From IMG/VR virus record IMGVR_UViG_3300028283_000171, positions 1-38,568 of that record: DNA of 38,568 nucleotides; one strand, given 5' to 3'. Origin of the DNA: a virus. Numbering within the stretch: the stretch's first letter is position 1; each line of letters starts with the position of its first letter. Below, in pieces: positions 1,448 to 37,540 of this stretch. A program made the translations under genes and the position numbers. Under the pieces are notes generated by a model. That model was given only the letters and a program-made list of their open reading frames with translations. It had not been told where the DNA came from and searched no databases.

Positions 1448-2200
1448 TTAAAAATTACAAAATCTTAAAATTTTGTGTTCATTTAAGGAAAGGAAATCTT
1501 TTATTAAAAATTCTATCTTATTTTTATCTAAATAACTTATATTCAATAGTCTAATGTCGTTCTTTTTACAATATAATTTCTTTAATTCGTCTCTCTGTTG
1601 TATTATTTTAAAAGCTTCTTCGCCCCCAAATATATCATATGATGCAAAATGCTGTTCACCATCAAACTCTATACAAACGTTATAGACAGGAAGATAGAAA
1701 TCAAAAGATAAACAGTTCTTAAATTTTAAATCACAAAACTTTTTTTCTTGGATGAAATTTATATTAAATTTTTTGAGAATAATTCCAATTTCTCTCTCAC
1801 CCTTGGACTCACTACAAATTGGACAGCCTTGTTTTCTATTTACGTGATCTCTTGGTTTTTGTGGAAAATCTCCGTGTTCTGGACAATTTATGATAACTTT
1901 TATTCTACCAGTGATGTAATCTACTTTATCGTAATTATATTTATCACCATGTATAATTCTAGCTTTTCTTATGAAATCTTCTTTTGTATCTGTAATTTTT
2001 TCTAGTGCACAATATTTACATCCTCTTTTTTTATGTGTATGTGAATGTAAAGTCATATGAAATGGACCGTGTTTTGGACAAATAATATCAACATAATCGT
2101 TCATAGATTTATGTTTTTTTATCAAAGAATAATCATAGGCATTATTATGAATTTTATTTGCTTTATCTATAATATCTTGTAAATTGTTTCTCTTAGACAT
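1448..2200 (-). CDS. Free-standing homing-type endonuclease (zinc ribbons plus PD-(D/E)XK-like nuclease)
   Basis: The 250-aa protein has two zinc-ribbon repeats. The first uses C41-x2-H44 and C61-x2-C64, the second C106-x2-H109 and C126-x2-C129; each begins with a CPxHG signature of the DUF723 type. A C-terminal nuclease core follows (SFDFYLP at 166-171, IEFDGEQH at 177-184), like Vsr/PD-(D/E)XK enzymes. This arrangement is typical of selfish endonucleases next to conserved phage genes, and here it follows the capsid gene. I start it at 2200 because the 14 upstream codons run into the capsid terminator. A TTAATATATA motif lies only 5 bases before this ATG, so the transcript may be nearly leaderless, or the motif may not be its promoter. 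Confidence 0.8.
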   Translation of the reverse strand: MSKRNNLQDIIDKANKIHNNAYDYSLIKKHKSMNDYVDIICPKHGPFHMTLHSHTHKKRGCKYCALEKITDTKEDFIRKARIIHGDKYNYDKVDYITGRIKVIINCPEHGDFPQKPRDHVNRKQGCPICSESKGEREIGIILKKFNINFIQEKKFCDLKFKNCLSFDFYLPVYNVCIEFDGEQHFASYDIFGGEEAFKIIQQRDELKKLYCKKNDIRLLNISYLDKNKIEFLIKDFLSLNEHKILRFCNF

Positions 2201-2205
2201 ACAAT

Positions 2206-2215
2206 TATATATTAA
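2206..2215 (-). promoter_or_regulatory. TTAATATATA motif before the endonuclease
   Basis: This is the same decamer as at other late units, but only 5 bases separate it from the ATG instead of the usual 18-25. It may be fortuitous or give a nearly leaderless mRNA. Confidence 0.3.
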
Positions 2216-2230
2216 AAAATAAGAACAAAA

Positions 2231-2262
2231 AAAGACCCCCAATCACATTGTCGGGGGTCTTT
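2231..2262 (-). terminator. Rho-independent terminator of the capsid gene
   Basis: A perfect 10-bp stem (AAAGACCCCC at 2231-2240, GGGGGTCTTT at 2253-2262) with a 12-base loop is followed on the minus strand by a T-run. It ends transcription about 40 bases after the capsid stop codon and before the endonuclease ATG, so the endonuclease would need its own promoter. Confidence 0.93.
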
Positions 2263-2303: not shown

Positions 2304-4055
2304 TTAGATAAGTACACCGTTTGTGTCGGTAACTTTAATAGCCATAAATTGCTTCTCGGGAAAGAATCCGATATCAGCTACTGCATATCTTGATCTTATT
2401 AACATGCGTGGTGCCCATGTAGCTTCTGAAATTAAGCTGATAGACTGAGCCATCAAATAAGGGATAAAGAGAAGACCTGGTTGGTCAACTGAGTTCTTTC
2501 TTCCTAAATAGATGTAGTTATCATCCCATCTCATGTAAGGATCTACATAGATTGCGATTTGTCCAACATTACCCATTGGGTAGAGTTGTCCGTTGGTGTT
2601 CAACTTACCAGCGTTAACTGGGTTGATTGTATAACCAGCGATATCTTGGATAACGGAAGCTAAGTTACCGTTTGTTACCAAATATTGAGCTGGTCCTATT
2701 CTACCATCTGTTGCGATGAAGTTAGAGGCATTGTTCAATTTAGCGATAAGCTTTCTTTGAACTGAGTGAGTTGTTTCACCCATACCTGTACCAAGGTGTG
2801 TTAAGTAATCATCAACGTTTAAGTCGAATTTGGATGTTACACCATCAACGGCCTTAGGAGCTGTGTAAGAAACTCTGTTCTTAAGAGCGAGGTTTCTAAT
2901 TTTACCAACGATTTCCTTAGAAATAACTTGGGTAAGTTCGTTAATAAGAACTCCTTCAAGTTTTTGAACGATATCCATACCAGTTGCGGCCTTGATATCT
3001 TCAATTTGGGTTCTCTTCAATGTTGAGGAGATTTCAATGTCACCAACTTGTACTGACTTGGTAAATACGTCAGGACCGATTACACCTGGGTAGGTTTTTT
3101 CATCTTGGTATCTGGTCATTGGACCTTCCCAACCATTTTCCATATTTGATTGCCAGCCTGCGCTGAAACCTGGAATGTGATCTTCGAGTAAGGATACTAA
3201 TTCAATTGAGAATGTAGCACCTGATGCTGTGATACCAGTTGTGGTTAAACCAGTTAAAGTAGCAATACCTGATGCTAAATAATCAGTAATTGCTCCAGTT
3301 TGTGGGAATGTATTGAGAGCTGCGTCCCAAATATTTCCTGTTCCTGATGCGTCTTGTGGAACTAATGATCCAACTGAGAAGCCAGCTTGTCTGTAAATTC
3401 TGAACATTGGGTGTCCATCAATTCTGGAGAATCCTAAGAATTCCATCCAGTTTGTGTAAGTTACAGGAGGTGTAGAGAAATAAGTTACTGCTCCACCTGC
3501 ACCAATATGTACCCAACATCTCTTGGTTAAACCACCAACTCTTTCTTGAATGCTCAATAAATTGAGTTGTAATTGGATAGCTTGTTTTAAAAGTAAATCT
3601 GTAGCTGTGCTAGTTGTTTTTACTTTGAAAACTAATGGTCTTTGTCTTGCTTCAGCGTCCTCACGGATACCATCACCATAAGCATTGTCATACTTAAAGT
3701 CAACAAAGAGTAATTCGATTCTTGGAGAAGCAGTTGGTTTAACAGCTACTAAGTCCAAACCGATAGTTTGAGCGGCAATCTTCATTGCTACTGGGAGTAA
3801 GTTTTGAGCTACGTCACCTGAACCAATTGTTCCATCAGCTTGCCAAGTTGCACCTGGAATTGTGGAGATTACTGGAGCAAGAACTCTACCCATACCATTT
3901 TGATTTAATGTGGCATAACCAACATTTTCATTCATCTGATGCATTTCTGCATACTCGGACATCCATGCTCTTTTTTCATCATCAACTACTCTGAGAGCGT
4001 CTAAGATTGGTGCCCATTTTTTCATTGCTTTCGCACTGTCAACTATAAAATTCAT
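2304..4055 (-). CDS. 23: Major capsid protein, T4 gp23-like
   Basis: This 583-aa protein forms the hexameric capsid lattice. Several blocks match T4 gp23 as I remember it. GDIEISSTLKRTQIEDIKAA with the following GMD and EL..VIS.EI corresponds to the gp23 E-loop/helix region. The C-terminal block with WAPRMLIRSRYAVA corresponds to the strand near the gp23 C-terminus. T4 gp23 is cut by gp21 after about residue 65; the best matching place here is after MNE (residue 43), before N-V-G-Y-A-T, so the first 43 residues may be a removable delta-domain. It is a single-gene unit with its own promoter motif and a strong terminator. GC at its third positions looks higher than in neighbouring genes, as expected for a highly expressed protein. 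Confidence 0.93.
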   Translation of the reverse strand: MNFIVDSAKAMKKWAPILDALRVVDDEKRAWMSEYAEMHQMNENVGYATLNQNGMGRVLAPVISTIPGATWQADGTIGSGDVAQNLLPVAMKIAAQTIGLDLVAVKPTASPRIELLFVDFKYDNAYGDGIREDAEARQRPLVFKVKTTSTATDLLLKQAIQLQLNLLSIQERVGGLTKRCWVHIGAGGAVTYFSTPPVTYTNWMEFLGFSRIDGHPMFRIYRQAGFSVGSLVPQDASGTGNIWDAALNTFPQTGAITDYLASGIATLTGLTTTGITASGATFSIELVSLLEDHIPGFSAGWQSNMENGWEGPMTRYQDEKTYPGVIGPDVFTKSVQVGDIEISSTLKRTQIEDIKAATGMDIVQKLEGVLINELTQVISKEIVGKIRNLALKNRVSYTAPKAVDGVTSKFDLNVDDYLTHLGTGMGETTHSVQRKLIAKLNNASNFIATDGRIGPAQYLVTNGNLASVIQDIAGYTINPVNAGKLNTNGQLYPMGNVGQIAIYVDPYMRWDDNYIYLGRKNSVDQPGLLFIPYLMAQSISLISEATWAPRMLIRSRYAVADIGFFPEKQFMAIKVTDTNGVLI

Positions 4056-4132: not shown

Positions 4133-6556
4133 TTACCTTTGTAATCTTTTTAAATATGCTTCTATCTGATTATCACTAAGTTTGGTGTTATCAAATTTGT
4201 TATTACTTTCTTTTAACAAAGTCACCTTACCCATGTTTTTCTTTGCATATTCATGGAGATTTCTACTATTCCAGAAACTTTCCATTTTTTCCTCAGTCAA
4301 GTTTGTATAGAATTGTGCGCTACTTAAAATACTACCTTGTACTTCTGGTTTTAAGCTCTCCCAAATAGGTCTAAGATCGGCAGGGAGATTGTCGATCAAT
4401 GTTTCATTAAAGCTTCTTTCGGCTGTGGTTAATGCCTTAGCCATAATTGTTAACACTTCATTCTCGTTTGTATAATATTTGCTTTCGTTCATTGCAACTA
4501 CTACTTTTTCTTTATCTTCTTGTGAAAGGTTGTAATAAGCAGCCTTTTTTCTTTCAGATAAAAATTCTAAGAAATGAGGATTGTTGTCTTTAGAGGCCTC
4601 ACGTTTTTTGGACTCATTTATTTGCTTTAAGATCAATTTCTTTAATGTGTTTTCTGAATCATAAATTCTGTCACCAATGATTGATAACCTAGATTCTTGG
4701 ATTTCTTGAACTTCGCCAGTATCAGATAATTTAACAACAGCGATTCCATTATCAGCATTCATAGCTAAAATTTCACCTGTTTTATCATCATCTATTTTCA
4801 CAACTTGACCTGGAGTTAATTCAGATTTACTTTCCTCATCTTGGATTTCTTGTGCATTTACTCCTTCTACGTCAATATCCTCATCCTCTTCACCTTCAAG
4901 ACCTTGAGCCTGACCCTGAACTTGACCTTGGGCTTGTGCCTGTGGTTGTGCTCCTGGTTGTGCTTGACCTTGTGCTTGTGCTGGTTGAGCTTGAGTCATA
5001 TCATCCATAGTTTCGTCTTCATCGTAATATTTCGCAACTGAATCAGTTTTAAAATTACCCATTTTTTGTTCTGGTGAATCGATACCTTCTTTTATCATGG
5101 TTCCTTTTGAATTTAGTTTTTCAGCGATATACTTATTGTATTCGATGTTTTTATCTATTGCTTCAGCTAAATAATTACCGTAAGCGATGTTGTCTGTTAA
5201 ATTTTCAGCGATGTATTCTGAATACTTAATACTGTTATCAAGTTGTTCACCTACATATTCTGTGTATTTAATACTGTTATCAACGTGTTCGGCGATATAT
5301 TCAGCATATTTGATATTGTTATCAACATGTTCTGCAATGTATTCAGCGTACTTAATGTTGTTATCAACGTGTTCTGCGATGTATTCTGCGTAAGCGATAT
5401 TCTTTTCAAGATTCTCAGCTACATATTGTGAATAATCAATAGATTTATCAAGATTTTCAGCAATGTATTCTGAGTATTTGATAGTATTATCAACATTTTC
5501 AGCAATGTATTCTGAGAAATCAATTGATTTGTCTAATGTTTCAGCGATGTAATTTGCGTAATCGATAGATTTATCTACGGCTTCTGCAACGTATTCTGTG
5601 TAGTTAATTGCTTTTTCGAGCTCACCGGCTAAATAGTCGTTGTGTTCGATAATTTTCTCAGTCTTGTCTTTAGTTCTTTCCAATCTGAGTTCTAACTTTT
5701 CGTTGGTTTTTTTAATCTTTTTGTTTTCTTGGACTACTACCTGCATCGTTTCTGCTAAGTAATCAAGATAGGAGGCTATTTTCTGGAAGCCTTCTTGGAA
5801 GGAATCATACTTCTCATATAAATCATTCAACTTGGCTGGATCAAAGTCGCCCTTTGTAACGGCTTCATTGATTTCACTTTTTGCTTTTGTGATTTGGTCT
5901 GTTAAATAATTCGAGTACTTTTCCATCTGTTCTTTTGTTACAAATTCATTTTTATCCATATTGAACAAATCGTTTATTTTTGACTCGTCGGATATATCAT
6001 ATATCCTAAAGTTAGCACTCTCATTGAATCCCAACGATTCATTGATTGTGCGGAGTTCCATTTTAGCAGAACTAAATCCGGGATCAGCCACTGCATCATA
6101 GGTAAAAAGTTTTTTAATAGTTACTTCGCCATTAGACTCTGTTATACCTGCGGCGCGTGATGAAACAAAAATAGGGCATCCATCATCTATCAGCGCTTGG
6201 GCTTCTTTACCCCAGTGAGTATTTAGTAATCTAATTTCACCATCTACTCTATTCTTTTCTTTTACAAAAAAAGCACTTTCAACTGTATGAGATACCCTGC
6301 CTAAACTAGTATCAAAAACATCTGGATGATCAAATTCCCCATATACCACACCCAGTGTTTTCTTTCTCTCTAATAATTCTTCTAAATGGGGCAAAAATCT
6401 ATCAGCTTGATATATCCTGTCATTTCTATTTTTCACATTAAACTCTGTGAAAATACCACCAAGGATATACTGACGCTTCCCGGACGGAGCGACAGCTTCA
6501 TTTATTTTTTTTAAACCATTAATAGAATTTTCAACAATAAGAACGTTTTTTATCAT
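4133..6556 (-). CDS. 21: Fused prohead protease (gp21-like) and scaffold protein
   Basis: This 807-aa protein joins two jobs that T4 splits between gp21 and gp22. Residues 28-170 are the protease: NRNDRIY at 43-49, GEFDHP with the probable catalytic His77, FVSSR with Ser132/133, and YDAVADPGF (153-161) with the Asp. Residues 200-305 look coiled-coil. Residues 305-482 form about twelve 14-residue repeats. A Gln/Ala/Pro-rich linker (about 515-560) follows, then a small basic/acidic domain starting LTPGQVVKI and a helical tail. LKKINE-A near residue 20 fits the gp21 self-cleavage rule. The scaffold would line the prohead interior and be digested on maturation. A late-promoter motif lies 24 bases upstream; no clear terminator follows. 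Confidence 0.88.
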   Translation of the reverse strand: MIKNVLIVENSINGLKKINEAVAPSGKRQYILGGIFTEFNVKNRNDRIYQADRFLPHLEELLERKKTLGVVYGEFDHPDVFDTSLGRVSHTVESAFFVKEKNRVDGEIRLLNTHWGKEAQALIDDGCPIFVSSRAAGITESNGEVTIKKLFTYDAVADPGFSSAKMELRTINESLGFNESANFRIYDISDESKINDLFNMDKNEFVTKEQMEKYSNYLTDQITKAKSEINEAVTKGDFDPAKLNDLYEKYDSFQEGFQKIASYLDYLAETMQVVVQENKKIKKTNEKLELRLERTKDKTEKIIEHNDYLAGELEKAINYTEYVAEAVDKSIDYANYIAETLDKSIDFSEYIAENVDNTIKYSEYIAENLDKSIDYSQYVAENLEKNIAYAEYIAEHVDNNIKYAEYIAEHVDNNIKYAEYIAEHVDNSIKYTEYVGEQLDNSIKYSEYIAENLTDNIAYGNYLAEAIDKNIEYNKYIAEKLNSKGTMIKEGIDSPEQKMGNFKTDSVAKYYDEDETMDDMTQAQPAQAQGQAQPGAQPQAQAQGQVQGQAQGLEGEEDEDIDVEGVNAQEIQDEESKSELTPGQVVKIDDDKTGEILAMNADNGIAVVKLSDTGEVQEIQESRLSIIGDRIYDSENTLKKLILKQINESKKREASKDNNPHFLEFLSERKKAAYYNLSQEDKEKVVVAMNESKYYTNENEVLTIMAKALTTAERSFNETLIDNLPADLRPIWESLKPEVQGSILSSAQFYTNLTEEKMESFWNSRNLHEYAKKNMGKVTLLKESNNKFDNTKLSDNQIEAYLKRLQR
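5111..5644 (-). repeat. About twelve tandem 42-bp repeats encoding Y-x-E-Y-I-A-E units
   Basis: The scaffold part of the fused protein has units of exactly 14 residues with consensus YxEYIAExxDxxIx, from HNDYLAGELEKAIN (residue 305) to YNKYIAEKL (ending near 481). Two adjacent units, YAEYIAEHVDNNIK, are identical in protein. The periodicity is kept at the protein level with scattered DNA differences, so the array is old or under selection. Each unit contains [IV]-A-E, which fits the T4 gp21 cleavage rule. Confidence 0.95.
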
Positions 6557-6673: not shown

Positions 6674-8497
6674 TTAAAATGTAGGTGCTTGACCACCACC
6701 GCCTTGTGCTGGTGGGGCTTGTCCACCGCCCTGTGGTGGTGCTTGACCGCCTTGTGCACCGCCTTGTGCTCCTCCTTGAGCGCCGCCTTGTGCACCTCCG
6801 AATTGTGCTCCGCCGCCTGCTTGTGCTCCACCACCAAATTGAGCGCCGCCACCCATTTCAGCTCCACCTCCGAAGCCACCGCCTCCACCGAAGCCACCGC
6901 CTCCGCCACCAAATTCACCGCCACCAGCTTCACCTTCTGCTGCACCAGCTCCGCCCATTCTTTGACGTTCTAAAGCTTTATATTTATTGTTTTCTTCAAT
7001 ATCAGCGTCAGTAAATTTCATAATATGACGAACAATCCATTCAATACTTAAATAAGGTTTACCTTCAGCGTCTTGCAAAGATGAACTCAAAGTACTAGCA
7101 ATAGTTGCTCTTTCATTCATATTTTTTAAATGACGCCATTCTTCAAACATCGTATCAGAAATAAATTCCAATTTAAGAGCGTTATTAAAATCAATATCGT
7201 CTTTCAATTCTGGGAAATCCAAAATCATTTGAATCTTCAAAGGCTTAACTAAAATTTCTTTGAAAATTGTTCTAATTCTACAAATGAAATTCTTAAATTT
7301 AACTTCATCTCTTGTAATAGCTGCACTTGAATCATAAGCATATGAACCACCGCCATTATCTTCATCAAATCTTTGGAATGGTAATTTACTTGCTCTTTTT
7401 AAGATTTTATAAAACCATTGAAGAACAATATCTTCATTTAAATTTACTTGTGTTGGTTGTAAGATTTCAATATTTGGTGTTCCTGCAGTTCCATCTGGAA
7501 ACCAGAAGTCCTTGCTAAAAGGAATATTAGTTTGTCCATTAATAGATACAGTTCCCATTCTTTCATCCCATTGAACATCATCATGATATTCACTCATTAG
7601 TTCATAAATTTGTTGCTCAGCTTGTTGACGAGTTAACCCCCCTACTGGGATAACAAACTTTTTATAAATTGATGCTTGGTTAATATTATAAAGTAATCTT
7701 GCCTGCTCAATCATTTTTAACTGGTTGAAAGGTCTAATTAAATTTTCTACGTAAGAAGTTTCTCCGTATTCATTATTGTTAGAATAAGAAATATAAATAA
7801 TCTGCGAATCTAATAATATTCTTCTAAGAGCTGGATTATCAGGATGTTGAATCCATATCATTGTATTTGTATTTGGATCTGTAGCAACAATAAGAGTAAT
7901 AGGATCGATTGGTGCTAAGTCAATAATAGTTTTTTGTTTATCATCGTAGACTATTTCATATGAAATATAACCGTCTATAAGAAGATTTTTTAAATAATTC
8001 CAAGCAATTTGACCTTCGTTAAAATTAAAAGTATTTATAAGTTTGGAGAAATTTTCTTGATATTTTTGTCTTATAGTTTGTTCATAATTATCAGGTAAAT
8101 CTTTTACAAAACAGAATCTATTATTTTCGTCGTAAATTATACATTCATCCGCGATTTGCGTAATGAAATCTTTTATTTCATCTTTAATAGAATATTGTCT
8201 GAGAATTTTTCTTTTATCTAAATATGTTCTATCAAGATAAGCGATTGATTTTTTATCTAAGAATCTAGCGATAGTTTTCTTTGTAAATAAATCATACATA
8301 TTTGAACTATTAGGTTGGTAAAGAACATCTGTTGTTTCTTCATGTACACCAATAGAATAAGCATTTCTAATACGCATATCGTTATATTCTAATCCACCAA
8401 ACATAGTGGATAATCCTCTTAATATTCTGTTAAATAAACCAAAATTTGTTGTATTTGTTTGATTTTGATTTCCTCTATATCTATCATAGCTTGCCAT
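6674..8497 (-). CDS. 20: Portal vertex protein, T4 gp20-like
   Basis: This 607-aa protein forms the dodecameric ring for DNA entry and exit and starts prohead assembly. Its order of elements follows gp20: an N-terminal wing region with ADECIIYD; IDPITL near 197-202; LKMIEQARLLY (260-270); IYKKFVIPVGGLTRQQAEQQ (277-296) with the following LMSEYH; and DFWFPDGTAG (330-339). A helical stem follows with PFQRFDED (373-380). The last 80 residues (about 528-607) are a low-complexity Gly/Gln/Ala/Pro tail absent from T4 gp20. A late-promoter motif lies 22 bases upstream and a terminator follows. A shuffled partial copy of its middle part lies at 32837-33418. Confidence 0.92.
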   Translation of the reverse strand: MASYDRYRGNQNQTNTTNFGLFNRILRGLSTMFGGLEYNDMRIRNAYSIGVHEETTDVLYQPNSSNMYDLFTKKTIARFLDKKSIAYLDRTYLDKRKILRQYSIKDEIKDFITQIADECIIYDENNRFCFVKDLPDNYEQTIRQKYQENFSKLINTFNFNEGQIAWNYLKNLLIDGYISYEIVYDDKQKTIIDLAPIDPITLIVATDPNTNTMIWIQHPDNPALRRILLDSQIIYISYSNNNEYGETSYVENLIRPFNQLKMIEQARLLYNINQASIYKKFVIPVGGLTRQQAEQQIYELMSEYHDDVQWDERMGTVSINGQTNIPFSKDFWFPDGTAGTPNIEILQPTQVNLNEDIVLQWFYKILKRASKLPFQRFDEDNGGGSYAYDSSAAITRDEVKFKNFICRIRTIFKEILVKPLKIQMILDFPELKDDIDFNNALKLEFISDTMFEEWRHLKNMNERATIASTLSSSLQDAEGKPYLSIEWIVRHIMKFTDADIEENNKYKALERQRMGGAGAAEGEAGGGEFGGGGGGFGGGGGFGGGAEMGGGAQFGGGAQAGGGAQFGGAQGGAQGGAQGGAQGGQAPPQGGGQAPPAQGGGGQAPTF

Positions 8498-9310: not shown

Positions 9311-9835
9311 TTAAAATACTTTTACACTATGATCGTCGAAATATTTTTCAGTCATAACGAAAAAATCATATCCTCTCTTCTCACAAAATTTCTTTGCCGT
9401 AGTCCATTTAGCGAAATTTTTCAGAAACATTTTCATTCTATATTCGTGATTTTCCAAAGATTTGGCTGTGACTCTTTTTGGCATAACTGGTGGAATAGTT
9501 TCGGTGTAAGGTTTTATTTCTACAACTGTTTTAGATATAGATCCATCTAATTTTTGAATTTCACAATATGCATCCGGATGATACCTAAATGTTTCCCAAC
9601 GTTTGTTTCCCCTAGAATCAGTTACTTCCATTTCATACGGTATAGTTATACCTTCAACGTTCCATTTAAGAACTCTAGGCTCGTTATCTAAATAGAAATA
9701 TAACTTGTATTCCCAAGATGATCTAAAATAAATAACAGTCGGATCTCCTAAATATTTTTTAGGATTTAAAAGATTATATTGTCCTTGAGTGTATTTATCT
9801 GACTTATTTGGTTTGGCTCGATACCCCATGTTCAT
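9311..9835 (-). CDS. 4: Head completion protein, gp4-like (TnsA/PD-(D/E)XK fold)
   Basis: The 174-aa protein resembles T4-type gp4, which finishes DNA-filled heads before tail joining. The order of elements is QGQYNLLNPKKYLGD (18-32), IYFRSSWEYKLYFYLD (35-50), IPYEMEV, YHPDAYCEI with an Asp, VVEIKP with the E-x-K of a PD-(D/E)XK nuclease core, and a C-terminal KWTTAKKFCEKRGYDFFV block. The Glu of SSWE, the Asp of HPDAY and E-I-K together form a plausible metal site, so a DNA-trimming role is likely. It sits with the other head genes. The start used is the first of two ATGs (MNMGY); the second, two codons later, is equally possible. Confidence 0.82.
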   Translation of the reverse strand: MNMGYRAKPNKSDKYTQGQYNLLNPKKYLGDPTVIYFRSSWEYKLYFYLDNEPRVLKWNVEGITIPYEMEVTDSRGNKRWETFRYHPDAYCEIQKLDGSISKTVVEIKPYTETIPPVMPKRVTAKSLENHEYRMKMFLKNFAKWTTAKKFCEKRGYDFFVMTEKYFDDHSVKVF

Positions 9836-14312: not shown

Positions 14313-15320
14313 TTATTTATCTAATTTTGTAGCCCCGCCTTCTGCACTATTGAGGTTATAACGTGGATGTCCTTTAACGTAATTTCCAGCGTTACTTCCT
14401 AATCTGCCTGTGCTTGGAGTGTAATAAGCAAGAGTGTCCATTGATGGGTAATAATCAAACATTATAGGATTTAATTGAATGGCTACAGAGGCGTAAACTC
14501 TTTTACCATTTTCTAAATAAGACGCGTCGTGCATTACTTGTTGAGCTTTGTACAACCAATCGTGTTCGATTGCGTAATCAACATATAATTTCTGATCAGC
14601 GTAATTTAAAACGTAAATTCTATCCATGTAAATTTTACCAGTTGGTTTGCGTAATCCCATCCAAACCAATGCTCTTCCTTTAATCTTTTTATCGTTTTTA
14701 TCACTCATTAATATTAATAACTTACATCTTTCTGGATTCTTACAATAAATATCTAAATATTTTTGTGCGTAATCGTGTTTCATGCAAGAACTATTTAAAT
14801 CACCTTGACTTTGATTCTCATAATGATCCGAAAGATAATAATATCTTATTTCTTCCCCTTCAACTAATTTAAATTTAGCAGAAGCTTTACCCATTTCAGC
14901 CTTGAAATCATTTACAAACTTTTCAATTTCAACTTGTTTGTAAGTGTCTGGGAATAATCTGTTTACTATCTTACCAACAGACATTTCTTGTCTTAATTTA
15001 GAGTTATAACAATCTCCACACGGAATCATCATATCTTGTAAATAACCAGGAACTTCAGTAGCTTTAGCTGCAGGCATAAAAGATATTTTATCTTCTTTGT
15101 CTTTTTTTGATCTATCACAATCTAAATAAGATAGTTCAAATTTATTATGACCTTTTACTGTTGGTTGTTTAGAAGCATCTAATTCTAAAATTTTTTTAGC
15201 TATAGGTGAATCTATAACACTTAATATCTTAGCAAGAACCTCAGAAATAAAAAACGAGATTTTCTTTTTTTCTTTATCGTCTGCTTCAAATAAAAATCCG
15301 TTATAGTTATACAATGCCAT
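14313..15320 (-). CDS. Tandem paralogue 4: putative internal head protein
   Basis: The 335-aa member of a four-gene tandem family has unknown activity. Shared landmarks are LSYLDCD then SFMPA (79-84), GEEIRYYY (155-162), SSCM (177-180), YLDIYCKNPERCKLLIL (188-204), KGRALVW (214-220), YMDRIY (231-236), DWLYK (254-258) and a C-terminus with TGRLGS (304-309). The invariant Cys, Asp and Arg positions could be an active site, but I cannot name the enzyme. Residues 5-13, NYNGFLFEA, resemble the T4 capsid-targeting sequence and offer a gp21-type cut after LFE. I infer packaging in the head. It is last in the operon, 16 bases after paralogue 3. Confidence 0.8.
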   Translation of the reverse strand: MALYNYNGFLFEADDKEKKKISFFISEVLAKILSVIDSPIAKKILELDASKQPTVKGHNKFELSYLDCDRSKKDKEDKISFMPAAKATEVPGYLQDMMIPCGDCYNSKLRQEMSVGKIVNRLFPDTYKQVEIEKFVNDFKAEMGKASAKFKLVEGEEIRYYYLSDHYENQSQGDLNSSCMKHDYAQKYLDIYCKNPERCKLLILMSDKNDKKIKGRALVWMGLRKPTGKIYMDRIYVLNYADQKLYVDYAIEHDWLYKAQQVMHDASYLENGKRVYASVAIQLNPIMFDYYPSMDTLAYYTPSTGRLGSNAGNYVKGHPRYNLNSAEGGATKLDK

Positions 15321-15336
15321 TTAATAATAGTTTATT

Positions 15337-16398
15337 TTATTTGTCTCTAGCGAGTCTTTTTGTACCACCATTAGCTTTATGTAATTGGTATCTTTCCATT
15401 GTTTCACCAGTAAATGGACTTTTAGTGGGTTTGCCTCTAATTGTTGATAATCTTCCAGTATCGGGGGTGTAAAAACACATTGTATCAATATAAGGATAAC
15501 GAGCAAATATACCGTGATTTTTTAATCTTGTTGTAATACCTTTATCACAAACTTGTCCGTCTTTTACAAAGGTGTAAACTTCTTTAGATTGATTTGGTTT
15601 GTACCACCAACCGTGCTCTTTAGCGTAATCTATAAAAATATTTACATCTGATTCATTTGTATAATAAATTCTATCCATCAATACTCCCTTTGTTGGGTTG
15701 CCTGGTATATCAACGACAAAGCAATCAAACCAAATTATGGCTCTTGCCACTAATTTCCCTTCTTTGTTCAACATTATTAACATGCCAACCTGTTCGGGAT
15801 TTTGGCAATAAATATCAAAAAATGATTGTTTTTCTGGTTGTTTAAGACAAGACTTCATAAGAGGAGTTCTAACATCGAGTACTCCTTCATCGGGTGCTTC
15901 TTCCATACCTGGATGAGGATTGTAATAAGATTTAACGTGATACCATTTACATATCTCTTCTCCTCTTACCATTTTTAATTCGTAATTGCCTTGATCCAAT
16001 TTACCTTTGATAAGATGTACAAAATTTTCAAGGTCTTTTGATCCAGCGTATTTAGGTAAAGTTCTGGTAACAAAGGCACCAATTCTCATAGATTGTCTGC
16101 CTTTTTCTCCCCATACTGGACTATTTGGTTTTGGATTAACTAAATCTTCTTCTGTTATACCAGCTAATCTACCAACCCTGTTAGCTGGGAGAACACTAAT
16201 AGTATCAATATCGTTAGTTAAATCAGCGTAAGAATTTTGAAATTTAATATCAGACTTAGGTAGATCTAAAAGTTCTTTTGATATTTTGGAGTCTATCGAA
16301 TTTAATAGTTCAGTAAGTTTAGGTGAAAAAAACATTGGAAGTTCTTTCACGTTAATATCACTTTCATATACATAACCATTAAAATTTTTAAGTCCCAC
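15337..16398 (-). CDS. Tandem paralogue 3: putative internal head protein
   Basis: The 353-aa member has the same order of motifs: LPANRVGRLAG, GEEICKWYHVKSYY, LMKSCLKQPE (Ser-Cys-Leu where the others have Ser-Cys-Met), FFDIYCQNPEQVGMLIML, ARAIIW, LMDRIYYTNESD, GWWYK and YTPDTGRLS. It is the most divergent of the four, replacing GRALVW by ARAIIW. The N-terminus MGLKNFNGYVYES fits the targeting pattern F-x-x-Y-V-x-E-S. C-terminal residues are basic (RLARDK), as in the other copies. It lies 17 bases after paralogue 2. Confidence 0.8.
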   Translation of the reverse strand: MGLKNFNGYVYESDINVKELPMFFSPKLTELLNSIDSKISKELLDLPKSDIKFQNSYADLTNDIDTISVLPANRVGRLAGITEEDLVNPKPNSPVWGEKGRQSMRIGAFVTRTLPKYAGSKDLENFVHLIKGKLDQGNYELKMVRGEEICKWYHVKSYYNPHPGMEEAPDEGVLDVRTPLMKSCLKQPEKQSFFDIYCQNPEQVGMLIMLNKEGKLVARAIIWFDCFVVDIPGNPTKGVLMDRIYYTNESDVNIFIDYAKEHGWWYKPNQSKEVYTFVKDGQVCDKGITTRLKNHGIFARYPYIDTMCFYTPDTGRLSTIRGKPTKSPFTGETMERYQLHKANGGTKRLARDK

Positions 16399-16415
16399 TA
16401 TAATTAAATATTATT

Positions 16416-17501
16416 TTAGTCTACTCTACCAGCTTGTCCACCACCGCCTTCAAGTTTTAGTCTTTTCATACCTTCAACTGGATTACCTGGATCAGAACCT
16501 AATCTACCAGTTCCTGGATTGTAATATTTTAAACTATCCATAAAAGGGTAAGTTTTATATTCAGCAGGTTTTAATTGAAGAGCCACAGACTTATTTACTC
16601 TCTGTCCGTTTTCTATATATGAAGCGTCGTAAGCCTGTTGATCATATTTATATAACCAACCTTTTTCCATTGCGTATTTCTTAAACAATTCTGCGTCAGA
16701 TTGTTTGAAAACATAGATTCTATCCATGAAAGTTTTATCTGTTGGTTTTCTAAGGTTTGACCACACTAGTGCTCTTCCAAGAAGTTTATTTTGAGCATTT
16801 GTTAAAATTAACATAGCACATTTTTCTGGATTTTTAACATAAATATCAAAATATGGTTGGCAATTTTTGCCTTCTTTAGAATGAGGATCGTATCTCATAC
16901 AAGAGTTGTTAAGACCAGCGTCTTTACCACCACCTGGATCTTTATAGTAATTTGATTCAGCGTACCAGAATCTAATATCTTCACCAGTAACTAATTTGAA
17001 TCTATCATAGATCATGGTTGCTGCGATTTCAGCTCTGTATGACTTAACAAAACTATCTATTGCTTTATCTGAGAAATTATCAAATAATCTATTAATGAAT
17101 TTACCAACACCAAGAGATTGTCTACCAGCACCTGTCCACATTTCACAATTTGGTGCTGGTTTTTGATCTGCTTCAGCTTGATCTTTGAATCCCATTTTAA
17201 ACCAAGCTCTTTGAGCTGGCATAAAAGATAGAGAGTCGTCCTTATCATTATCAACATCAATATAAGATATATCAAAGAGATTTTCTTCAGGCTCTTGATC
17301 AATATTTAGAATTTTACTAGCTATAGCTTTAGCTTGAAAATCTGCTGTTTTCATCATCTTTTGAAGAAATCCTTCTAGCTTGGGTGAAATAAATAACTTC
17401 AAGAGTTTCTTTTTACCTTTAACGAATTTAGGTTTTTCTGGATCAATCACTGGTTCGTCTGCTTCATTAACAAAATTTTTATAATGTGATAACGTGCTCA
17501 T
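16416..17501 (-). CDS. Tandem paralogue 2: putative internal head protein
   Basis: The 361-aa member shows SYIDVDNDKDDSLSFMPAQR, GEDIRFWYAESNYY, NNSCMRYDP, PYFDIYVKNPEKCAMLIL, LGRALVW, FMDRIYVFKQSD, GWLYK and YNPGTGRLGS. The N-terminus HYKNFVNEADEP is the closest of the four to the T4 targeting sequence (Y-x-x-F-[IV]-x-E-A) and fits a cut after VNE. A basic stretch KGKKKLLK follows. It is 17 bases downstream of paralogue 1. Confidence 0.82.
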   Translation of the reverse strand: MSTLSHYKNFVNEADEPVIDPEKPKFVKGKKKLLKLFISPKLEGFLQKMMKTADFQAKAIASKILNIDQEPEENLFDISYIDVDNDKDDSLSFMPAQRAWFKMGFKDQAEADQKPAPNCEMWTGAGRQSLGVGKFINRLFDNFSDKAIDSFVKSYRAEIAATMIYDRFKLVTGEDIRFWYAESNYYKDPGGGKDAGLNNSCMRYDPHSKEGKNCQPYFDIYVKNPEKCAMLILTNAQNKLLGRALVWSNLRKPTDKTFMDRIYVFKQSDAELFKKYAMEKGWLYKYDQQAYDASYIENGQRVNKSVALQLKPAEYKTYPFMDSLKYYNPGTGRLGSDPGNPVEGMKRLKLEGGGGQAGRVD

Positions 17502-17518
17502 ATTTTAATTTTTATTTT

Positions 17519-18499
17519 TTATCTATCTACTGGTGATTTAGCACCGTTTTGATTTTTTAAACTGTAACGAGGAAAAACTCTCGAAGGATTGTTCGGATCC
17601 CTACCAGGATTACCAGGTGTTGAAGCCGCTCTACCCGTCGCTGGTGTATAATAAGCCATAGTATCCACATAAGGATAATATGTATAATCAATTGGTTTCA
17701 AACGTGTTGCGACAGAAGTTGTTTTTCTTACTCCGTCCATCATAAATGAATCACCTTTTTTATATAACCATTTATGGTCTATAGCGTATTTATGAAAAGC
17801 TGCTTCTATTTGTGGTCCTTGACTATTAAGATAATATACCCTATCTAATAATGTGTATGGGTTTTTATCTTCTGCTGTATCACCACTTGGTTTTAATAAA
17901 TTATTCCAAACAAGTGCTCTGCCTATAATTTTATCAGGATTCTTTTCGCTAAAATAAATTAACAATCCACATTTTTCTGGATTGTTGCAATACATATCGA
18001 AAAATGGTTGTGCATTAGATCCTTGCATACAAGAATTAAAAGGTCCATCCCATCTTTCACCAAGATACCAATATCTAATTTCTTCACCGTGAACGACTTT
18101 AAATCTTTCTTGTTCTTTTTGTTTTACGTCAATTTCTGGACGATATCTGTTATAGAAACGATCTATGTCCATGTTTGTAAATTCACCTGGAAATAATTTG
18201 TTAATCATTTTGCCCCAAGTCATAGTTTGTCTCATTCTACTCTTCCAAGGATCGTCACCAGATTCCTCCACTTTTTTCATTCTATCTATTGGAAGATAAG
18301 ACACTACTTTACTATCTTTATCTACGTCTAAAAAATTAACATCAGACTCTACTTTACTTAAAATTCTCTTAGCTATAGGTTCAGAAAGTATTTTACTCAA
18401 AATCGTAATCAGATTGTCGGAATATAATACTTTCACAACATCAGTAGTTTCGTTTGATTCTTTCATATATACATTAAACTTTAATACGTAATTGTTCAT
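17519..18499 (-). CDS. Tandem paralogue 1: putative internal head protein
   Basis: This 326-aa first gene of the operon has FLDVDKDSKVVSYLPIDR, GEEIRYWYLGERW, FNSCMQGSN, FFDMYCNNPEKCGLLIYF, GRALVW, LLDRVYYLN, KWLYK and YTPATGRAAS. The N-terminus reads LKFNVYMKES, which keeps the pattern F-x-x-Y-M-x-E-S of a targeting sequence. A late-promoter motif lies 25 bases upstream. A TAnnTTTG box 5 bases before the ATG is probably chance because it would leave no leader. I chose this start because the alignment with the paralogues begins here. Confidence 0.8.
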   Translation of the reverse strand: MNNYVLKFNVYMKESNETTDVVKVLYSDNLITILSKILSEPIAKRILSKVESDVNFLDVDKDSKVVSYLPIDRMKKVEESGDDPWKSRMRQTMTWGKMINKLFPGEFTNMDIDRFYNRYRPEIDVKQKEQERFKVVHGEEIRYWYLGERWDGPFNSCMQGSNAQPFFDMYCNNPEKCGLLIYFSEKNPDKIIGRALVWNNLLKPSGDTAEDKNPYTLLDRVYYLNSQGPQIEAAFHKYAIDHKWLYKKGDSFMMDGVRKTTSVATRLKPIDYTYYPYVDTMAYYTPATGRAASTPGNPGRDPNNPSRVFPRYSLKNQNGAKSPVDR

Positions 18500-32971: not shown

Positions 32972-33418
32972 TTAATATGGAATATTTGTATTATTATCTT
33001 CGTTCCAATTTTCTTCACCGTAAGGATCTAAATCAGAATAAACCCTATTAATAGGTGTTTCTCCGAATGTATCTAATCCGCCATCACCTGCCCACTCAAC
33101 ATCTTCGTGGTACTCACTCATTAACTTTTTTATCTGATCTTCAGCTTCTTCTCTTGATAAACCGTTAACAGGAATAGTGAATTTTCTCACCTTTGGTCCT
33201 TCATAAGTCGAATTCCAATCTATTTTATCATCACCATCATATTCATGTATATCTTTTTTTACATCAATAGTCTTCTTAACAAATAAATCATACATATTAC
33301 TATGTAAAGCATTATAAGCTTTAGGAATTTCCATAATGGCTTCACCCAAAGGTGAAATAATAGGTTCCTTTTCTTTTTTAATAATTCCCATCTTCTTTAG
33401 AATATCTTTTATTTTCAT
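32972..33418 (-). CDS. Truncated, rearranged portal-like ORF
   Basis: The 148-aa product is built from portal pieces. Residues 34-51 (AYNALHSNMYDLFVKKTI) match portal 46-76 with a short deletion. Residues 77-109 (VRKFTIPVNGLSREEAEDQI and LMSEYHEDVEW) match portal 278-310, the likely clip-domain part. Residues 143-148 (NTNIPY) match portal 322-327, where a TAA now ends it. About 226 portal residues between the first two blocks are missing. An inserted LDPYGEENW (130-138) is a motif shared with unrelated ORFs. It overlaps the RNase H stop (ATGA) and has an AGGAGGT Shine-Dalgarno sequence, so it may well be translated. Decoy, regulator or dead gene are all possible. Confidence 0.75.
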   Translation of the reverse strand: MKIKDILKKMGIIKKEKEPIISPLGEAIMEIPKAYNALHSNMYDLFVKKTIDVKKDIHEYDGDDKIDWNSTYEGPKVRKFTIPVNGLSREEAEDQIKKLMSEYHEDVEWAGDGGLDTFGETPINRVYSDLDPYGEENWNEDNNTNIPY

Positions 33419-35614: not shown

Positions 35615-37540
35615 ATGATTACGAAATACAATATTTTTGAGAGTGTCGATGGATGGATCGATCTTCTTGATTATTTAAATGAAAATGATTTAAAAAATTT
35701 AAATAAAGTAACTGACGCGTATAAATACCGTGATAGTATTGATAATAATATCGCTGTAAAAGAACATTTATCATATATGTTAAAAGGAAAACTTATAAAG
35801 ATTCATTATGATAATAATTATATAGAAGGAGAAGTGCCTTCTGAAATTAGTTTCGGATCAAATCAACCATTCATTAACATTAGTAATAAAGAAGATCGTC
35901 TTATGAGATTTAGAACTATTGATTTTTGTACAAATCCGAATATGATTCAGGTTTACTCTGAAATTGAAAAAAAACCAAGAGTGAGATGGTTTAAGCACGG
36001 TAAATTACAAAATGATACTTTAAATGAATACGTCGAATTTGTACCAGTTAAATACGAGTACGGTGGTTATTATGGAGGCAAAGATGTTTTTAGATTACAA
36101 AATTACGCCAAAATGGCCAGGATAGGGTTATTACAGAATTTCCTCAAAAGTGGCGATTGGTATAGAATAAGGTTCAATGATTATAAGCATATTGTTATTA
36201 AAATAGAACAAATTAGATACGGTGGTGATGTAGTATCGATAGGATATTTTATGGAATATAATAAAGGGGAAATTCGTGGATCAAAAAATGGACATAGTGT
36301 TATAGTTATAGATACATGGAAAGACGATAGAGATATAGTAATTGAACACATAGAACCAATGGATAATATATTAAATAGGAGAAAATTCAGAGAATTAAAT
36401 ATACAAGTTGGTGATAATGTTAAAGTTTCAAATCCTGGTTTAGAAGATAAGATATTTAAGATAACTAGTGTGAATAAAGAAGAACATAGTTATTTTTCCA
36501 AATCATGGACTGTTTCATATCCAGAATTAACAAAGAAAAATCATAAAATATTACCAATAGATATAGTTGAAAATTTAGGAAGAGATTTGATTAATAAAGA
36601 ACTAGATCCTTATGGTGAAGAAGTATGGGAAAGTAAAAAAAGTAAGAAAAGAAACGCTACTAGAATAAAAATGGCTGAGATAGATCCTTACGGTGAAGAA
36701 GACTGGGGATGGGACGTCAAAATAAATGACGACGACTTTAAAGACAAATATATAGTCTTCAAAAAGAAGTTTTTAGGTAGTTACGATTATTATTTTGCTT
36801 TTTTAACGAGTCATTATCAAATACTTTCCTTTGGGGGATCACAAGATTTGAACATAATTAAAAAACATCAAGTTTTATCACCTATATCAGAAAGAGAAAT
36901 AGAAAGAATTAAAAAAGATAAAATAGAATTAGTGCCTTATCATTGGGTAGGAAAATATAGTAAAAACGAGTTCGGAAATTCAGAAAGAATGCCATATTCA
37001 TCACTCAAAAAAGATGTTCTATTTCTAGATCAAGATTATATGGATAATTATTTATATATGAATGAGTCTGTTAACGAAGAATACGTCGAATTTAATAAAA
37101 CAGGTGAAGAATTGGAATTAAAACGTTGGCATAATTATTTTGAAGATTATATAGTTCCTTTTTTAAGAAAAGGTGAATGGTACAGAATAATATGTGAAAT
37201 ACCATATGATAAAAATGATTACGATGTACTTGAACGACCAGGAAAAGAAAATAAACTTATCACTAAAAGAAGAAAGAAAATGTTGTTATATGTTTTTAGA
37301 TTCCATTCTACTCATAGTGATTGGGCATGGGATATAATACAATGTGATAGAATGTACAAACATGGTGAGATCGAAGAAGTCAACCCATTCAAAGATTATA
37401 TACAAATGGATAGATTAAGAAATTATCAAAATGTAAAAATTCAACACATAGTCAATCCAGAGATAAATAGAAAAAGAGAAGAGATGAGATTGAGATTACA
37501 CCCTAACGATCCATACGGAGAGGAGGAATGGAATGATTAA
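35615..37540 (+). CDS. Hypothetical 641-aa protein with internal repeats and three DPYGEExW motifs
   Basis: I do not recognise a family. The start at 35615 follows the endonuclease stop by 4 bases; an upstream in-frame start at 35573 would overlap it and adds no conserved sequence. The N-terminus MITKYNIFESVDGW recalls a capsid-targeting sequence. Two related blocks, EYVEF with a later KSGDWYRIRF (first half) and EYVEF with RKGEWYRIIC (second half), show an internal duplication. DPYGEEVW and DPYGEEDW lie between the halves, and DPYGEEEW is almost at the C-terminus. The layout looks like two or three short genes fused. The last motif's codons supply a GGAGG-like ribosome site for the next gene. 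Confidence 0.72.
   Translation: MITKYNIFESVDGWIDLLDYLNENDLKNLNKVTDAYKYRDSIDNNIAVKEHLSYMLKGKLIKIHYDNNYIEGEVPSEISFGSNQPFINISNKEDRLMRFRTIDFCTNPNMIQVYSEIEKKPRVRWFKHGKLQNDTLNEYVEFVPVKYEYGGYYGGKDVFRLQNYAKMARIGLLQNFLKSGDWYRIRFNDYKHIVIKIEQIRYGGDVVSIGYFMEYNKGEIRGSKNGHSVIVIDTWKDDRDIVIEHIEPMDNILNRRKFRELNIQVGDNVKVSNPGLEDKIFKITSVNKEEHSYFSKSWTVSYPELTKKNHKILPIDIVENLGRDLINKELDPYGEEVWESKKSKKRNATRIKMAEIDPYGEEDWGWDVKINDDDFKDKYIVFKKKFLGSYDYYFAFLTSHYQILSFGGSQDLNIIKKHQVLSPISEREIERIKKDKIELVPYHWVGKYSKNEFGNSERMPYSSLKKDVLFLDQDYMDNYLYMNESVNEEYVEFNKTGEELELKRWHNYFEDYIVPFLRKGEWYRIICEIPYDKNDYDVLERPGKENKLITKRRKKMLLYVFRFHSTHSDWAWDIIQCDRMYKHGEIEEVNPFKDYIQMDRLRNYQNVKIQHIVNPEINRKREEMRLRLHPNDPYGEEEWND
36605..36706 (+). repeat. 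Two DPYGEExW-coding copies 54 bases apart
   Basis: Copies at 36605-36628 and 36683-36706 encode DPYGEEVW and DPYGEEDW. Further copies lie at 37508-37531 and 38341-38364, and on the minus strand at 33005-33028. Codons differ between copies at several third positions. Confidence 0.85.

Follow-up and report, generated by a model that had tools for sequence, protein, structure and literature searches.

Tandem units resembling the T4 capsid-targeting sequence in a giant-phage protease-scaffold protein and on other proteins of its lineage

What is a phage scaffold doing with a dozen copies of a short peptide that resembles the signal carried by internal proteins of the T4 head? The question is raised by an 807-residue prohead protease-scaffold fusion protein, P0001, encoded on the minus strand at positions 4133-6556 of a 38.5-kb IMG/VR record, the whole of which was analysed and is referred to here as the window. 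An earlier note on this DNA had read the repeats as tandem copies of the T4 capsid-targeting sequence (CTS), and had proposed that packaged proteins enter the head by imitating one of them and that such imitation would explain targeting in T4-like phages in general.

The fusion protein and its repeat array

Genes were called as longest open reading frames (ORFs) from the first ATG. The fusion gene sits between a T4 gp20-like portal gene, its upstream neighbour (6674-8497, minus strand; Pfam PF07230, 1.1e-69), and a T4 gp23-like major capsid gene (2304-4055, minus strand; Pfam PF07068, 2e-25), which is the place of genes 21 and 22 in T4. The protein is composed of a protease, a helical region, 12 repeats, an acidic linker rich in Gln, Ala and Pro, and a C-terminal domain, in that order. 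The T4 gp21-like protease domain (residues 4-250; 5807-6547, minus strand) was assigned from its match to the head maturation protease family PHROG 207 (E 4.3e-26) and from an alignment of relatives, in which the GEFDHP and SSRAAG protease blocks are mostly at least 90% conserved. The Pfam Peptidase_S77 match scores 22.2 bits, under the cutoff of 27. A search for gp22 families in Pfam, PHROGs and NCBIfam returned no match to the fusion, and we treat the likeness of its scaffold part to gp22 as a functional analogy only.

Orthologues, which together with PHROG 207 identify the fusion, are present in phages of 735, 642, 635, 636 and 462 kb and in IMG/VR contigs, and the counterpart in LR756501.1 (735,411 bases) is 99.4% identical. 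These genomes are called W01 (LR756501, 735 kb), W02 (LR756502, 642 kb), W03 (LR745206, 635 kb), W04 (LR756504, 636 kb) and W05 (LR756500, 462 kb) below. The scaffolds of W02, W03 and W04 carry the same array, and in W05 the array is degenerate. Genomes of 634-642 and 735 kb have been assigned to the Mahaphage clade, for which Bacteroidetes hosts are predicted (PMC7162821), and the accessions W01-W04 are probably those genomes.

Two further genes near the head locus are of separate note. An HNH/homing-endonuclease-like gene lies directly downstream of the major capsid gene (1448-2242, minus strand; PHROG 559, 1.3e-51), and a protein with a TnsA-like endonuclease fold (9311-9835, minus strand) matches PHROG 218, head closure. 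Elsewhere in W01, at ~623.9-624.4 kb (L073:19365-19910, minus strand), a terminase-like ORF shows a Walker-type SRQVGK followed directly by intein-like sequence, CIDFTSVLTVMDD..., and the large terminase encoded there may contain an intein.

The 12 units of 14 residues are contiguous (residues 317-484; 5105-5608, minus strand), in agreement with the dozen or so counted in the earlier note, and have the consensus I-x-Y-S-E-Y-[ILV]-A-E-N-[LV]-D-K-[NS]; IKYSEYIAENLDKS is an example of a scaffold unit. A degenerate unit precedes the array and an isolated one, ASYLDYLAETMQVV, is found upstream (5735-5776, minus strand). The protein contains 13 copies of the core motif [YF]xx[YF][IVL][AG]E, against a maximum of two in 20,000 shuffles, which rules out a chance origin. 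The DNA copies show just 62-77% identity to the reference copy, and the codon for Tyr-6 differs in 35 of 66 unit pairs, the amino acid in none. Because the DNA copies have diverged and codons vary freely at invariant residues, the array appears to be old and kept by selection on the protein; the synonymous divergence between units rules out recent slippage as its origin.

From all scaffolds fetched we gathered 118 distinct units, using a pattern that demands aromatic residues at positions 3 and 6, [ILV] at 7, [AG] at 8 and Glu at 9. Within this pattern-selected set, Tyr-6, Glu-9 and an aromatic residue at position 3 (Tyr in 113, Phe in 5) are each present in 118 of 118 units, and every unit contains [ILV]-[AG]-E, as the pattern demands; Ile-1 is found in 113, Glu-5 in 96, Ala-8 in 115 and Asp-12 in 108. 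An alignment of 18 scaffolds that is independent of the pattern gave a similar picture: nearly all of its invariant columns fall within the repeats, where they correspond to I, Y, Y, A and E of the unit.

Likeness to the T4 targeting peptide and to cleavage sites

The CTS of T4 IPIII acts in targeting mainly via residues 4 and 7 and in processing via residues 8 and 10 (PMC9026906, section 2.6), and gp21 cleaves after L/I-x-E (PMC9026906). When the repeat is aligned with this peptide, the four residues (Y, F, I and E) fall on repeat positions 3, 6, 7 and 9, of which Tyr-6 and Glu-9 are invariant and aromatic-3 and [ILV]-7 are conserved in class. The proposed resemblance thus holds for IPII and IPIII at both the targeting and the processing residues. 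It does not extend to all the internal proteins to which the note had ascribed the start MKTYQEFIAEA, since only IPII and IPIII begin in this way and IPI begins MKTFKEFTSTT. A position-specific matrix of the repeat core ranked the YQEFIAE of IPII and IPIII first among 49,656 T4 7-mers, at 12.9 bits with the next at 9.4.

Candidate cleavage sites of the same kind are seen in the capsid. In T4, cleavage removes a propeptide of 65 residues from gp23 (PMC9026906). In the giant-phage clade the major capsid protein shows [MLI]-N-E (in some cases LYE or IHE) with N or S as the next residue, a short distance ahead of the conserved mature part, and that of the window has QMNE at this putative site. The capsid x-x-E agrees with the [ILV]-A-E of the repeats and with the [IL]-[NK]-E of the N-terminal tags described below, and it is plausible that each scaffold unit is cut.

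Targeting-like peptides and scaffold units on other proteins

The window itself holds a natural control for the modularity of such a tag. Four paralogues are encoded in tandem on the minus strand (14313-18499), and three of them are extended at the N-terminus by ~13-35 residues that include a CTS-like peptide: a 361-residue protein (16416-17501) starts with MSTLSHYKNFVNEA (peptide at 17460-17501), a 335-residue protein (14313-15320) with MALYNYNGFLFEAD, and a 326-residue protein (17519-18499), whose W01 orthologue has an additional residue, with the weaker MNNYVLKFNVYMKES. By alignment, the fourth (15337-16335) has neither extension nor CTS and begins exactly at the common domain. The family, with conserved blocks G-E-E-I-R, S-C-M, G-R-A-L-V-W and D-R-I-Y, has at least 45 members in W01-W04, 15 of them tagged. 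Searches of Pfam, PHROGs and NCBIfam found no match for it, and a structural model of low confidence has a likeness to GNAT acetyltransferases, with no match below E 0.001.

Peptides of this type recur across the genomes with a consensus of about M-I-K-K-[YF]-x-x-[FY]-[IL]-N-E, examples being MIKTFDEFINES, MIKKYIQFINEA and MVKRYKQFINEG. In W01, [FY]..[FY][ILVM].E is found within residues 2-24 of 53 of the 717 predicted proteins, as compared to a mean of 3.0 over 420 permuted motifs, among which it ranks first; the reversed motif has a count of 0 in this comparison and never exceeds two (0-2). These counts rule out a bias in N-terminal composition as the cause of the motif in W01. The first aromatic residue lies at residues 4-8 in most matches (background 0.12-0.18 per position), and the targeting aromatics are followed by I/L-x-E, a candidate cleavage sequence. 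Since one to four permuted motifs in W02-W04, some overlapping the true one, equal or exceed its count, the weight in these genomes is carried by a leave-one-genome-out test.

For that test an 11-column profile was trained on the other genomes and used at a threshold of at least 8 bits. It identified 68 carriers among 829 proteins in W01, 41 among 820 in W02, 34 among 789 in W03 and 30 among 758 in W04, and 13 among 292 in W05, of which about half of the genome was covered; shuffled N-termini yielded 1.2-2.8 per genome with the same profile. These 30-68 predicted CTS-like N-termini per genome in W01-W04 are a new finding. A profile built from giant phages only and run against 207 T4 ORFs returned IPII and IPIII as the top two (16.2 bits), with the third at 8.0. 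In GAP32 the single match (1/435) is GAP32_249, a gp22-like gene beside the protease. Tenacibaculum phage PTm1 (W08) has 3 carriers of 248, and Lak-A1, with TAG read as Gln and about half sampled, has 0 of 204; the alternative code was dismissed as the reason for this zero, which persisted after genes were re-called with TAG as Gln. The scaffolds of GAP32, PTm1 and Lak-A1 were examined and the array is absent in all three. An effect of host phylum was likewise rejected, as PTm1 and Lak-A1 infect Bacteroidetes and are without the N-terminal family. The scaffold-protease of PTm1 (217853-219547) has a different repeat, of ~16 residues with E-[KNS]-W-[IL] cores.

The tag is found on proteins that otherwise have little in common. 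With their first 25 residues removed, the 167 carriers of the first scan group into 123 clusters that are unrelated to one another, and 102 of these have a single member; the carriers make up as much as 8% of the proteins, are scattered over the genome without clustering, and include metabolic-looking PPK2 and radical SAM proteins. In W02 and W03 they also include homologues of T4 RnlA, an RNA ligase for tRNA repair in restrictive prr hosts; such homologues would be sensible cargo for injection. Carriers have fewer family matches than length-matched non-carriers (Pfam 24 vs 51, PHROG 15 vs 60), but we do not rely on this difference because a depletion of T4 homologues among carriers is not significant (4.1% vs 6.0%, p=0.66). 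Compared with the repeat, the tag has its upstream aliphatic residue one position further from the first aromatic, at -3 instead of -2. The column profiles of tag and repeat are most similar in the expected register, with r of 0.53 against 0.24 for the next best; the similarity is moderate, and 1.6% of column permutations reach it.

Full scaffold units also occur outside the scaffold. When every ORF of the four largest genomes (W01-W04) was scanned with a 14-column unit profile, three proteins stood out from reversed and shuffled ORFs, whose maximum was at most 9.5 bits. A 207-residue protein of W01 (619760-620380, plus strand), 94% identical in another contig, carries close to its C-terminus three full units that score 29-38 bits. 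A 228-residue protein of W01 (715658-716341, plus strand) has one unit near its N-terminus (25 bits) and a C-terminal membrane helix, and an 83-residue protein of W03 (460438-460686, minus strand) has an N-terminal array of ~four units. One more match, in W04 at 12.1 bits, looks like chance. The gene next to that of the 228-residue protein (W01 716346-716573, plus strand) encodes a small membrane paralogue that starts with MSAYDEYLREEMNKTRAYSEYVA, a CTS-like start with a second unit 14 residues on, and the same arrangement is seen at W04 145806. These two proteins form a link between the N-terminal tag and the repeats of the array. A second unit at this distance is not general among ordinary CTS peptides, being confined to a few such bridge proteins. 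The adjacent W01 pair (L078), both of them small, with scaffold-like units at the N-terminus and membrane helices at the C-terminus that are paralogous, might anchor the prohead core in a membrane or be ejected.

A second short peptide was encountered during this survey. D-P-Y-G-E-E-x-W is encoded ~104 times in W01, in dozens of proteins and often at the extreme C-terminus; in the window it is found at 33028 (minus strand) and at 36605, 36683, 37508 and 38341 (plus strand). It is absent (0 occurrences) from the other giant phages, T4, PTm1, GAP32 and Lak, and in IMG/VR it is common mostly to apparent close relatives. Since third codon positions vary and the flanks are unconserved, it looks like a tag at the peptide level and not a DNA element.

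Proposed scaffold-unit mimicry and its alternatives

We favour, at a probability of roughly 0.6, an explanation in which cargo gains entry to the head by mimicking a scaffold unit. The fusion would serve as the scaffold, or core protein, in a head of the T4 type, and its rod region would be a chain of 12 helical 14-residue modules, each offering a docking surface (Tyr-3 and Tyr-6) and a prohead-protease site ([ILV]-A-E). A cargo protein would bear one such module, in most cases a short peptide at its N-terminus like the CTS of T4 and less often two to four full units resembling those of the scaffold, and would be taken into the prohead by adding itself to the scaffold lattice as one more unit. 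Cleavage after x-x-E by the maturation protease would then act on scaffold and cargo alike, so that the scaffold fragments are cleared and the cargo is released. What we infer in this scheme is the docking, the packaging, the cleavage and the helical structure. The idea of mimicry is itself well supported by sequence within this lineage, where full units and CTS-like N-termini are present on other proteins, as would be expected if packaged proteins imitate a unit.

A wider formulation, to which we give slightly less than even odds, is that the T4-type packaging address is a single scaffold repeat unit, the scaffold of this clade being a 12-fold chain of addresses; dozens of tagged proteins would enter each head (~65 in the 735-kb phage) and would have the tag removed by the protease that dissolves the scaffold. 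The occurrence of a CTS without an array in T4 is counted against mimicry, as are the two differences in motif between tag and repeat, the moderate similarity of their column profiles and the presence of metabolic-looking enzymes among the carriers. The claim that the mechanism explains T4-like phages in general was not sustained: T4 gp22 has IAE/LAE sites without a Y-x-x-Y array, and GAP32, PTm1 and Lak-A1 combine the lack of an array with one, three and no members of the N-terminal family, respectively. As the positive genomes belong to one clade, the co-occurrence of array and tag amounts to about one evolutionary contrast.

It is conceivable, though in our judgement unlikely, that the array is an ordinary helical or coiled-coil rod, with cargo docking elsewhere and the likeness to the CTS arising only from shared protease sites ([ILV]-x-E) and helix-favouring aromatics. 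Fourteen residues correspond to two heptads with a plausible core of I1/S4/A8/L11, a common protease motif would be expected anyway, and the closest PDB sequence matches of the array are designed helical barrels (E 0.008). An AlphaFold model of the fusion also shows one long helix, but was left out as evidence because confidence in the array is low (pLDDT <50; mean of the model 56). In the most regular coiled-coil register of the unit, the core is made of I1/A8 and S4/L11, so that the invariant Y3, Y6 and E9 fall outside it and would face outward, which would fit a surface for recognition and cleavage better than a plain coiled coil. The T4 CTS has the same pair of aromatics, set at a fixed distance ahead of the cleavage motif, and this pair lies outside the protease motif (PMC9026906), and a mere rod would not account for full units in non-scaffold proteins. 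An unrelated coiled-coil family with no packaged protein sharing it, the outcome by which the earlier note would have its reading overturned, found no support: no coiled-coil or repeat family in Pfam, PHROGs, NCBIfam or the PDB gave a match to the array that was convincing or passed a curated cut-off.

The breadth of the N-terminal family invites another reading, namely that it is a real sorting or stability signal for a non-capsid target such as the membrane, a replication compartment or protein turnover. The tagging of up to 8% of scattered proteins, the metabolic look of some of them, and the C-terminal membrane helices of two multi-unit carriers all point this way. We nevertheless consider it quite improbable, as the profile made from giant phages only recovers exactly the two T4 proteins that are proven to be targeted to the capsid by this peptide, plus the scaffold gene of GAP32, and a general host signal is hard to reconcile with the counts for PTm1 and Lak-A1, Bacteroidetes phages without the array. 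Finally, the units might be serial cut sites and nothing else, their number reflecting clearance of the scaffold and not docking. Every unit does have [ILV]-[AG]-E, and in T4 the head is cleared by repeated cutting of the core proteins (PMC9026906, PMC5694885), but the invariant Tyr-6, aromatic-3 and I1 would then be needless, and we regard this account as very doubtful. Serial cutting is compatible with scaffold-unit mimicry and the two are not exclusive.

Relation to known head-packaging systems

The open-access papers searched contain no description of a scaffold as tandem CTS units. A scaffold made of a chain of CTS-like modules offers a concrete and testable answer to how a targeting tag works, in that the tag would imitate a scaffold unit. 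It also provides a rule, based on sequence, by which packaged proteins of the largest known phages can be predicted, and these proteins probably include some that are injected as infection begins; the phages are known from metagenomes, and most of their carriers have no recognisable family.

N-terminal head-packaging signals are also represented by the long propeptides of phiKZ and SPN3US and by the P1 DarB signal (PMC5694885, PMC9024508), for which a motif shared with a scaffold unit is not reported; in phiKZ/SPN3US-type giant phages no gp22 counterpart had been confirmed at that time (PMC5694885). T4 gp21 (Peptidase S77, PHROG 207) shares the protease domain, which is here fused to the scaffold and has a C-terminal extension of ~550 residues. 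T4 gp22, which begins MLKEQLIAEA, has in common with the scaffold part of the fusion the gene position between portal and capsid beside the protease and the repeated I/L-A-E sites, but it has no tandem Y-x-x-Y-[ILV]-A-E array, and in the giant phages scaffold and protease form one chain. The closest parallel is with the CTS of IPII and IPIII. Giant phages have tens of carriers per genome where T4 has two or three, and their tag prefers N or K before the Glu, where the T4 CTS and the scaffold repeat have Ala. Both peptides are N-terminal, place the first aromatic at residues 4-8, have an aromatic pair spaced by 3 and then [ILV]-x-E, and are carried by diverse, unrelated proteins.
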